A stretch of DNA of 64,000 nt from Tetradesmus obliquus (lineage: Eukaryota > Chlorophyta > Chlorophyceae > Sphaeropleales > Scenedesmaceae): the NCBI GenBank assembly GCA_030272155.1, contig CP126191.1:6532501-6596500 (forward strand). Reading direction: 5' to 3'. Of this stretch, positions 53,114-58,844 are shown piece by piece (the stretch's first letter is position 1; every line of letters begins with the position of its first letter). Both the position numbers and the translations under genes were made by a program. Below the pieces are notes generated by a model. It did not search any database. It was not told where the DNA came from and saw nothing but the letters and a program-made list of their open reading frames with translations.

Positions 53114-53205
53114 CAGCAGTAGCAGCAGCACGGACCCACCGTGCAACAGTAGCTCGTGCCCGTCAGACGCCGCATTAACTCAGCAGCAGGCAGCAGCCCC
53201 CAGCC
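52608..53205. promoter_or_regulatory. putative bidirectional promoter, glycosyltransferase and bL20m
   Basis: About 600 bases lie between two divergent ATGs. The right part contains an imperfect CAG/TAG run at 53073-53128, probably in the 5' UTR of bL20m. No core promoter element was identified. Confidence 0.4.
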
Positions 53206-54067
53206 ATGGGCTTGCACAGGAGGAGGGTGTGGGAGATCGCCAAGGGCTTCCGTGGCAGGGCCAAGAACTGCATCAAGATAGCACGCCAGCAGGCTGAGAA
53301 GGCGCTGCAGCATGCCTACAAGGGCCGGAAGGACAAGAAGGGCGAGAACCGCTCGCTGTGGATCCAGCGTGTCAACGCAGCAGCACGCGAGCACGGGGTG
53401 AGGCGCAGCAACGTTGAAGATCCCTTGCGCATGCTGCTGCATGCAATGTGGCTGAAGCAGTGTGGGAACATAATGCTGGTTTGGCAGCCTGGCAGCATAA
53501 GCATGGCTGCTGTTGTTTAGTCGTGCTCTGTGCATGCTGAACGAGGATTCAGCAGCAGCAGCAGCAGCAGCAGCAGCCTGGACTATTTGCTGTTTAGCTA
53601 TCGGCGCTGCCCGTCCAGGGCAGATGCAGCAGGGCAAGGCAGTGCAGGGGCCATGACATAAGCGCGGAGGAGGCTGTGCTGGTGGTACAGCTGCTTGCAG
53701 CTGGGCTGTCCACTGATGCTGCTGCTGCTTTGTACGCATGGCATCCCTTGGACGCTCGCCGGGCCTGTGTCAGCAGCACGGTGTGCAGCCATTTAGCAAA
53801 CAGCACCATGCAAGAAGCGGAGCAATTGCAGGTTGTACTTTATGACGATGAACTTTTTATAGCTTGGTCTGCAGCCAGCTGAAGTTGCACGTGCTTGCTG
53901 CTGCCGCCGCGCAGATCAAGTACTCGCTGTTCATGAATGGGCTGCGGCAGGAGAACGTGACGCTCAACCGCAAGATGCTGTCGGAGCTGGCCATCTTTGA
54001 GCCTCACAGCTTCAAGGCGCTAGTGGAGCAAGTGCAGTACATGCGCGGCCTGGGAGGCAGCAGGCCA

Positions 54068-54107
<40 letters not shown>

Positions 54108-54199
54108 TAGCTAAGAGGATAACGGTCGGCAGCTTGGAGGCGGGCAGCAACAGCAGCAGCAGCAAAGCAGCTGGCAGCATAAGCAACAACACCGCTTAG
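53206..54199 (+). CDS. MRPL20: mitochondrial large-subunit ribosomal protein bL20m
   Basis: Two exons (53206-53397, 53915-54199) give 158 residues. AKGFRGRAKNCIKIARQ, RSLWIQRVNAAAREHG, YSLFMNGLRQENVTLNRKML and FEPHSFKALVEQV match plant mitochondrial L20 almost block for block. bL20 is a primary 23S rRNA binder needed for early assembly. As in plants, no separate presequence precedes the conserved start; the basic N-terminus probably directs import. Green algal plastids usually encode their own L20, so the mitochondrial copy is the better match. After the family end a 45-residue tail with about 12 consecutive Ser has been added. Confidence 0.93.
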
Positions 54200-54637: not shown

Positions 54638-54937
54638 ATGCCACCTCTAGGAAACATCCTCACGGATTCGCAGTGTGCAGCGCGCCTAGGCGCACCCGAG
54701 GCCCTCATCCTGGCGCTACAGCAGCGACAGCAGCAGCAGCCTGCACCTCAGCCAGCCATTGATGGTGAACCGCAGCATGTGCAGCAGGTGCTCCACAACA
54801 CCAGCTCGTTTCTTGATAGGGTAGCATCCGGCCGTTTTGAAATCAGGCCTGCCATCCAGCAGCGTTCGGCAGAGGGCCACACAGTGCCAGGCAGCCAGCT
54901 GCTGTCACAGAGCTGCACAGAGTCACCCAGCAGTGTC

Positions 54938-54968
<31 letters not shown>

Positions 54969-55868
54969 CACATGAGAAGCTTGCCATTTCCCCCCAGCAG
55001 CAGAGCAGTGATGGTGGGAACAGCAGCAGCAGCAGCCCCAGCTGCACATGCAGCAGCCACCTGTCTGATCTCTCACCGCACAGCTGTGCTGGCCCCTCAC
55101 CTGTGCTGGCGGCTTCTGCCCGCTCAATCACTAGTGACGGCAGCCAGCCCAGTGTGGCAGCAGTGCACAGGAAGCCTCAGGCTGCTGCAGAGCTGGCACC
55201 CAGCAGCACATCAGGCGCAGCAGCCGCCCCTTCAATGTGTGAGGCAGGGGTGCACGTGGCGCGCCCAGTCGGCATGGAGCCTGCTGCAGCAAGTTCTAGC
55301 AGCGCAGCAGCAGCAGCAGCAGCTCCACCTACAGCTGCAGCACTGCCAGTCACTGCCGCAGTCGCTACCACTGTGTCAGCACCGCAGGCAGCAGCGCCAA
55401 CGGCAGCAACAGCAGCAGCTCGTCCAGAACCAACTATTTTGACAGCCACACCAGCCATCCCGCACACCACCCGCAAATGGGCCGTGGACTATGTGGGTGA
55501 GCTGCTGCAAAAATGGCAGCAGCAGCAGCAGCAGCAGCAGAAGCAGGAGGAGCAGCAGCCTGTGGAGGAGCTTGCTGAGGCTGCCAGCCTGAGGCTAAAC
55601 CCGGAGGCCTATGCCTACCTGAATGAGCAGCTGCAGAGCATCAGGGTGAGTCCCACAGCTGCAGGGCTTACCGATTGTGTTGCAGAGCCACGTGCGTGAC
55701 GCCCTGCTGTCAGATGCTGTGCCAATGCACCTGATGCAGTGCAGGTGGTTCAAGAATCTGTGGGTGCAGTCGCTGCTTGTGTGGTGCTTGTGATGTGCGG
55801 CAACCTGTTGCTATTGCGCCATCTGCCTGGAAGTTCTGCAGGCAAGGAAATACCTTGGGTGCTGCTGC

Positions 55869-55920
<52 letters not shown>

Positions 55921-58844
55921 ACAACAATGCAGGTGTACTGCGAGGTTGCCAAGGATGGCCGTGCTTGTTCGAGCTTCAGCAGCGTCATCTCATGCCTGGA
56001 CCCTCGCACTGCAGCAGAGATTAGCCACAGCACACACAACGTCAGCACCAGCGAGCAGTTGGCTGGTGATGCAGCAGCCACCACCAGCTGTGAGCGCTAC
56101 CTGCACAGCAAGCACGGCGTGCAGCTGCAGCTGCCGCGCTGCCCCTGCATAGTGGTGGAGCTCAGGGCGGACGCAGAGCAGCAAACCAACAGCAGAGGCG
56201 AAGATTTGGAGCAGCACAGCAGGCTTGCAGCACAGGAGCTGTACCGGCATTATCCACTGGAGTTCTGCTGGTGGGTGTTGGGCCAGAACAGCAGCTGGCT
56301 TGCAATCACATGTGGCTTGGATCCAAGCAATCACATGTGGCTTGCAATCACATGTGGCTTGCAATCACATGTGGCTTGCAATCACATGTGGCTTGGATCC
56401 AAGCAATCCGGATTGCCTGCTGTGAATGTGTCACTATGCATCACAGCCACTGCGGCACGCTGCTGATCAAAGGGCCATGGCATCGCATGCTTACTTGCGC
56501 AATTGCAATCAATGGCTTTCAATATCAGCCTCAGCATTGACTGGCAAACAGCTTCTCCTTGCATGGTGATGAACGGATGGGTGGCTGCTGCTGCTGCTGC
56601 TGTTGCAGGCTGGAGCAGAAGTCAGCCAAGCACCAGTCAGTGCTCAAGCGCCGCCATCCACACCACACCTGGCCGCCTATCCCTGTCACGCCAAATGCAA
56701 CGGGCCCCACTGCACGCACGCCATCCTGGATTGCAGACGCAATGATCAAGGGGCAGATGGGTGAAGACATCCCAGCGCAGCCAGCGCCAGCAGGAGCAGC
56801 AGTGCCTCGGCAAACCGTCGAAGGCGGCATCCAGCGCCTCATCGATGCACTGCTGCCACCTGAAGCTGAGCGTCGGCGCATGAAGCGCGTGGTTGAGGCT
56901 GTGAGCAACGCCATTGCCAGCGCTGAGCAGTCTGGCGCATGGACGGTGGCGCGGGCCAAGCCTGTGGGCAGCTTCAAGAAGCGCACCAACCTGGCCGGCA
57001 CGTGAGCGAGGCCTGCTCTGCAATGGAGCTGCTGCACAGATGGCAGCGTTGCGCGTTCATGGCAGCAGCATTTCAGACCATACAGCTGTCCTCGTGGACT
57101 GCAGCTCCCCGGCATGCTGTGTTGATGTGGCAGAACACCGCTGCATGGACACGGCGCTGTGCAAGCATGCTGTCTACTGCAATGTGTACATTGACACCCA
57201 AGGGCGCAGAGTCCTGAATGCATGCTAAACACGGGTTTGGCACCTTTGTGTTGTTGCTGCTTGTGTCCTGCTGCTGCAGGAGTGACCTTGACATCATCAT
57301 CCTGCTCAGGTGCCACAACCCCAAGCAGCAGCACTTTGACAAGTGCCGCAAGCAGCTGCTGGGCCAGGTGAAGCAGCAGCTCTGCACAGAACTCGGCCCC
57401 ATCACGCCGCTGCCTGCAGAGAGCACTGCAGAGGACAAGGATCAGCTGCTGATAGCGCTGGCTGCTGGGGGCTGGGAGCCGCTGGGATGCGTGCCTCACT
57501 ACTTCCTGTCGCTGAGGCACCGCGTGCTGTGCATGCAGCTGGACATACAGGTGCGGCCAGTGACGCCAACGTCTGCACTGGCACATACTCAAAATGCATC
57601 CATCACGCACAGTACACATAGCAGTTGTTACAGTTGTGTCTCGAGTTGTCAGTAGGTGACACAAATGAAATTGGCTCCGCGCGCTTGGCAGACTGTTGAT
57701 TGATCACCTGTGCATGTGGCTTGTCTCTCTGCTTGCTCTTGTTATGACAGCATGCCAGACAACAAGCATTTTGCGCCATTGCATGTGCTGCATGCAGGTT
57801 GCGCACTACCGCGGTGAGACACTGGACCAGCAGTGGCAGAATGTGATGCAGAAGCTACAGGACTCGGCAGCTGCAGTAGCAGACTCGGGGCAGCTGCCTG
57901 TGGTTATGCCAGTCAGGCAGCGCACCACAGACCTCAGCGAGCTGTCAGTGCTAGTGGTGCGGCGCACAAAAGAGCTGTATGAGAAGCTGTATGCAGAGCG
58001 GCACCAAGCACTGACAGCAGACGTGACCACAGAGCAGCACAAGAAGCAGCACGCCAAGCACAGCGGACATGGGCGGCTGGCCACTGATGTGATCAGGCTG
58101 TGCAAGGCCTTTGCAAAGTTTGGCCTGCCAGTGGCGTTGAGAGAAGCAGCAGCACGCCGGGCAGAAGCAGCGGCAGCAACAGCAGCGGCCTGCGGAGCCG
58201 GGGCTCTGAAGGTTGCAACGGCTGGCTGCAGTTTAAGTGGTGAGTCGGCAGAGTGCAGCGCAGGCGGTACGGCAGCAGCGCCCTTCAAGGGCCCTCCCGC
58301 CTTCATCTGGGAGATCCTGGTGCTGTTTGTGCTGCAGCAGGATGCAGCGGCTGGTGCCTTTTCCTTCGACCAGCGGCAGCCGCTCAAGCTGTTCATGGCA
58401 GTGCTGTCAGCAGCCTCGCTGCTGTTGCGCACTGGCGAGGCAGAGGAGGCGCTGAAGCGTGCAGTGGTGCTTGACATGAGCCGAGTCTACCCCGGCGGGT
58501 ACACTATGGAGGAGACAATGCAGTTCAGGGACGCCTGGGGCAGCGAGCAGCTGAACACCCCATACATAATCAACCCAGTGGACCCCACGTTCAACTGCAC
58601 AGAATGGCAGGCTTTCAGGGAGTGGGACATCGCGGCTGAAGCTGCAAAGAAGCTGCATGCGCAGCTGGCGGATGCGCTTGCGGGTGGCAGCGCTCTTGCT
58701 GCTGCTGCTGCTGCTGCTGCTGGCCAGGGTGGAGATGGGTGTGACGAATGTGCTGATGACGGTGACATGTGGAAGCGTCTGCTCAGGATCAGCACGCTAG
58801 GCGCAGTGTGGGATGCGTGCTGCCCTGCACGGCAACACGCTTGA
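54638..58844 (+). CDS. PAZ-domain plus OAS-like nucleotidyltransferase protein
   Basis: Five exons (54638-55645, 55933-56270, 56609-57001, 57280-57550, 57798-58844) give 1018 residues. Residues 1-278 are Gln/Ser/Ala-rich. Residues about 280-449 fit a PAZ domain: WAVDYVGELL, LNEQLQSIRVYCEVAKDG, RYLHSKHGVQLQLPRCPCIV and YPLEFCW correspond to the Argonaute PAZ order ending in YF..R...L.YP.LPC and LPLEVC. A helical link then leads to a nucleotidyltransferase core: GSFKKRTNLAG at 569-579, SDLDIIILL with Asp582 and Asp584, and LDIQ with Asp668. The C-terminal half has DVIRLCKAF, PPAFIWEILVLFVLQQ (from 836) and IINPVDPTFN (928-936), as in the OAS1 C-terminal domain. OAS enzymes make 2'-5' oligoadenylates when bound to dsRNA. 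The activating ligand and product here are unknown. The PAZ-to-transferase join rests on one intron. Confidence 0.8.
56299..56408 (+). repeat. 17-base tandem repeat in the intron joining PAZ and transferase exons
   Basis: CTTGCAATCACATGTGG occurs four times exactly (56299-56315 and 56341-56391). A variant block carrying the palindrome CTTGGATCCAAG appears at 56316-56327 and again at 56392-56403. The array starts 28 bases after the splice donor. Confidence 0.95.

Follow-up and report, generated by a model that had tools for sequence, protein, structure and literature searches.

The locus described here raises the question of whether a single gene of the green alga Tetradesmus obliquus (Scenedesmaceae, Chlorophyta) encodes both a PAZ domain and a nucleotidyltransferase (NTase) of the oligoadenylate synthetase (OAS) type and, if so, what such a protein might do. 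The stretch of DNA that was analysed, hereafter the window, comprises 64,000 nucleotides (C1:6532501-6596500), and genome-wide searches covered 104.66 Mb on 17 contigs. Here we propose, at roughly even odds, that the gene belongs to a green-algal (Scenedesmaceae-type) family whose members carry the L1-PAZ part of an Argonaute and, in the place of MID and PIWI, an OAS-superfamily NTase, and that its product would act as an RNA-triggered alarm synthase. The literature searched, outside the scope of which most subscription papers and all bioRxiv preprints lay, held no paper on a PAZ domain together with an oligoadenylate synthetase in an alga, on a PAZ-OAS1 fusion, or on an Argonaute of T. obliquus. 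OAS-like proteins are the commonest CD-NTases across eukaryotes, occurring in 8 of 12 supergroups, according to the main text of the survey of eukaryotic CD-NTases by Culbertson and Levin (2023; PMC10732462), a text in which the word PAZ is absent.

The spliced frame lies on the forward strand (+) and consists of five exons separated by GT-AG introns, encoding 1018 residues with one terminal stop; in the window copy it is open throughout. Exon 1 (54638..55645), which ends in ...LNEQLQSIR, carries the ATG and a low-complexity N-terminus, followed by a helix whose counterpart in the paralogues precedes PAZ; it was assigned by alignment with the paralogues and with Argonaute exons. Exon 2 (55933..56270) starts in phase 0, ends in phase 2 and encodes the body of the PAZ domain (VYCEV...YPLEFC), assigned from Pfam, hhalign and the fold of a relative; its boundaries match those of the genome's Argonaute PAZ exons. 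Intron 2 (56271..56608), which contains an array of 17-base units at 56296-56395, separates PAZ from the linker. Exon 3 (56609..57001) encodes a short post-PAZ stretch and the linker, after which the NTase begins at about 56814 with its N-terminal helices, including GSFKKRTN. The NTase palm, with SDLD (D582 and D584) and MQLD (D668), is encoded by exon 4 (57280..57550), and the OAS1_C-like helical domain, with NPVDPTFNC at 58572-58598, by exon 5 (57798..58844), which ends in the stop codon. The exon junctions are predictions from sequence comparison with the relatives P0001 and P0006-P0009, the latter being four metagenome exon proteins that share the end point of exon 3. The PAZ-NTase junction claimed in the preliminary description (56270/56609) is a phase-2 GT-AG intron.

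A similar frame could arise artificially, if the gene model had arbitrarily spliced a PAZ-like exon of one gene onto a neighbouring NTase gene. The length and low complexity of exon 1 would fit such an artefact, as would two predicted proteins that end before the NTase (P0010 from T. obliquus and P0011 from Scenedesmus). Against it stand four genomic copies with the same exon order and the same PAZ-exon phases, as well as P0001 of Scenedesmus sp. NREL 46B-D3, a single predicted protein that begins within PAZ, covers its C-terminal half, extends through the NTase and is 55% identical to the window protein over the queried residues 500-960. In three metagenome cases, PAZ exon proteins and NTase exon proteins lie on contigs of equal length, each pair of which we take to be one contig, so that PAZ and NTase would be linked there too. 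The fusion is moreover flanked on the same strand by the gene for ribosomal protein L20 directly upstream (53179-54199 of the window; two pieces of it match in Pfam at 1.5e-20 and 1.1e-11) and by an exon lying about 1 kb downstream, of which a 25-residue piece matches Acid_PPase (1.7e-4, below the Pfam cut-off). The two-gene artefact is disfavoured, and we hold it to be very improbable. The proposal that one gene encodes both PAZ and an OAS-like NTase was confirmed, on a signal that is thin in the single sequence and becomes firm once relatives are added.

The three further PAZ-NTase copies form a cluster at C3 5713568-5727162 (L016:3568-10000 and L017:1-7162), one of them on the strand opposite to the other two. 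In the simplest gene model, three of the four genomic copies are interrupted, which was counted against the preferred explanation: copy a by an in-frame TAA, copy b by a frame-breaking insert of low complexity, and copy c by a frame slip. These may be decaying genes, or the interruptions may reflect unrecognised introns or assembly errors. The PAZ region of a C3 paralogue is 86% identical to P0010 (157/182 columns, gaps counted). Three homologue searches over 5.8 billion proteins yielded 1, 9 and 12 proteins; in the first two, scoring was confined to the 8000 candidates with the most words in common, and distant members may therefore have been missed. All named members of the family come from Scenedesmus or Tetradesmus, and the remaining ones carry no taxon. 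Since Scenedesmus has P0001 as well as P0011, which is of the tandem type, both the window-type and the tandem-type lineage look older than the split between the two genera. A viral or prokaryotic source was also looked for: pattern scans of IMG/VR and GTDB with A3 gave 159 and 93 matches and no confirmed relative, and tblastn with exon 5 of the window gave no match among 50,697 phage records.

Pfam places the PAZ domain of the window protein at residues 377-462, with E 0.0096 for the whole protein and 4.5e-4 for residues 279-473, both below the cut-off. Pfam PAZ matches were obtained in all five window-type members (2.6e-4 to 0.047, all below the cut-off) and in none of the 12 tandem-type members; both results were counted against the explanation preferred here, as was the absence of all four fusion copies from the genome-wide PF02170 matches at E<=0.001, among which were three Argonaute exons. 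Used as a single-sequence genome query, the window PAZ exon gave no match but itself below E 0.06. Searching the PDB by sequence with PAZ brought up no PAZ chain, which, like the preceding result, was counted against that explanation, and the matches obtained (a tRNA synthetase, DNA polymerase gamma, mTOR, a toxin subunit and a viral polymerase) were taken as chance. When the window-type PAZ profile was compared by hhalign with three Argonaute PAZ exons, probabilities of 97.2 and 96.6% were obtained (0/300 shuffles); with only two Argonaute exons the values were 57.4 and 51.0%, the rise having come on adding the third. In a plain hmmsearch with the same profile, one Argonaute exon ranked third among 20,002 sequences, below two shuffles, and the other was absent among the matches listed. 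The predicted fold of a relative resembles PAZ, and Foldseek with this model also listed the Plus3 domain of Rtf1, beginning at row 35 and at a probability of at most 0.44. The preliminary description had made its PAZ assignment dependent on a structural match of this region; the predicted fold of the relative and the hhalign value of 97.2% bear it out.

Two tyrosines of human AGO, Y309 and Y314, are those which we take to hold the 3' terminal phosphate. By alignment to these positions, the first is tyrosine in all five window-type members (Y392 in the window protein), and the second is tyrosine in three and histidine in two (the window protein and P0017); one Argonaute-like gene of this genome also has histidine there. 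A Dicer origin of the domain was rejected, because both the exon boundaries and the structural rows match Argonaute. Two Argonaute-like PAZ genes (L002 and L001) are found on opposite strands at C10:5602682-5613231, separated by about 10 kb, and the L002 gene has a longer loop before YPLE, like the PAZ of the fusion. Nine further PAZ-like places were noted on C4, C8, C12 and C16 (E 0.06 to 1.3); two of them, on C4 and C8 respectively, did not look like PAZ genes on visual inspection. Four weak PAZ-like matches at C8:247074-301128 have identical scores, the last three being 10,568 bases apart, and probably stem from a repeat that has nothing to do with PAZ.

The NTase core begins near residue 518 and carries GS at 569-570, DxD at 582/584 and a third aspartate at 668, followed by the OAS1_C-type motif NPVDPTFNC at residues 929-937. 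In PDB profile searches OAS1, OASL and OAS3 lead; ILF2, bacterial cyclase-type NTases and ribosomal-protein matches are also listed. The OAS1_C model (PF10421) matches paralogue c above its cut-off (25.7 bits). It matches pieces of the window copy below the cut-off (E 0.039-0.11) and is unlisted for the whole protein; at E<=1 it is found in four of five members and in three of four metagenome exon-5 proteins, none above the cut-off. Genome-wide, PF10421 found two C3 copies (0.025, above the cut-off, and 0.306), and the absence of the window copy was counted against the preferred explanation, as was an archaeal CCA enzyme HMM that matched the NTase core at 8.8e-8 in two of five members. CCA and CBASS models of NCBIfam match the NTase, with no OAS among the NCBIfam matches listed, as do PADLOC cyclase HMMs, and an MTPAP-like palm was matched at 0.0039 in one of five members. 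Structure prediction, which the preliminary description had put forward as a check on both domains, upheld the PAZ part through the fold of the relative and gave no confident model for the NTase (mean pLDDT 48.1). On this poor model, OAS, Trf4-type polymerases and CdnC are not separated, the TRAMP core being the top structural row with CdnC tied; this too was counted against the preferred explanation. By sequence, OAS is the nearest of the NTases in the PDB profile searches. The description of the enzyme as OAS-like is upheld by the lead of the OAS family in the PDB profile searches, by the three invariant aspartates and by PF10421 in paralogue c.

The same data bear on two other readings of the fusion. 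The protein might be a small-RNA tailing enzyme, in which PAZ offers an RNA 3' end to the NTase and the nucleotides added destine small RNAs either for decay or for protection. That a domain which holds 3' ends should stand next to such an enzyme makes sense and favours this, as does the precedent of MUT68 in Chlamydomonas, which together with its relatives in small-RNA decay acts on RNA 3' ends according to PMC13030794. The PDB profile searches argue against it, since the NTase matched OAS, ILF2 and cyclase-type NTases and no poly(A) polymerase, TUTase or CCA enzyme; the C-terminal motif is moreover of the OAS1_C type, and no PAP-associated domain was listed by Pfam at E<=1. We regard tailing as unlikely, though worth keeping in mind. 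Alternatively, PAZ might sit on an OAS-like scaffold that binds small RNAs or partners and makes no product, comparable to OASL or NF45/NF90. OASL and ILF2 are indeed among the PDB matches and DZF_N was matched in two of five members; however, the DxD pair and the third aspartate (D582, D584 and D668) are invariant in 5/5 aligned rows from two genera, so a dead enzyme is not expected, and we consider a non-catalytic role distinctly improbable.

The sensor reading is favoured because the NTase sequence is of the OAS type. PAZ, as its fold and the largely kept pocket tyrosines suggest, would capture a short or double-stranded RNA by its 3' end, and this capture would turn on the OAS-like domain. 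As its family and catalytic residues suggest, that domain would link units of ATP, or of another NTP, without a template into an oligonucleotide, which would serve as an alarm signal and might act through an effector. Animal OAS relatives make alarm signals in antiviral immunity, and the enzyme relatives of the fusion make linear or cyclic oligonucleotide signals. We know of no activator of OAS-like proteins outside animals; an OAS-like enzyme with a built-in receptor for small-RNA ends would offer a directly testable ligand. It is conceivable, and we suggest it tentatively, that the protein is an Argonaute with its slicing half swapped for an OAS-type synthase, in which capturing the 3' end of a small RNA would directly set off a nucleotide second messenger. 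The PAZ-NTase family suggests that green algae may convert captured small RNA straight into a chemical signal; if so, RNA interference and nucleotide-signal immunity, an alarm like those of OAS and CBASS, would meet in one green-algal polypeptide. The interpretation in the preliminary description, which tied PAZ to an OAS-like NTase in one algal gene, is supported.

Among known systems, MUT68 and the non-canonical poly(A)/poly(U) polymerases share a similar helical domain with the fusion, on the poor model, but gave no match to it in PDB profile searches, and to our knowledge they carry no PAZ. Bacterial CD-NTases (CBASS cyclases) share the PADLOC matches and, again on the poor model, the tied top structural row of CdnC; the fusion differs in being an intron-bearing eukaryotic gene, and their PDB profile match is weaker than that of OAS. 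With the OAS superfamily (OAS1/OASL; PF10421), the fusion shares the LLP, GS...DxD, PPxYxxEL and P-x-DPT-x-N blocks in the order of porcine OAS1; it differs in having PAZ in front and in an identity of 16-18% in structural rows of the poor model. The fusion protein is not an Argonaute, because Pfam at E<=1 lists neither MID nor PIWI over all 1018 residues, and the next recognised same-strand exon, about 1 kb downstream, is phosphatase-like. With Argonaute it nevertheless shares the PAZ fold, as predicted in the relative, the boundaries and phases of the PAZ exon, and a preceding exon with a similar end, ...L(K/R)GVK before the boundary and V after it.
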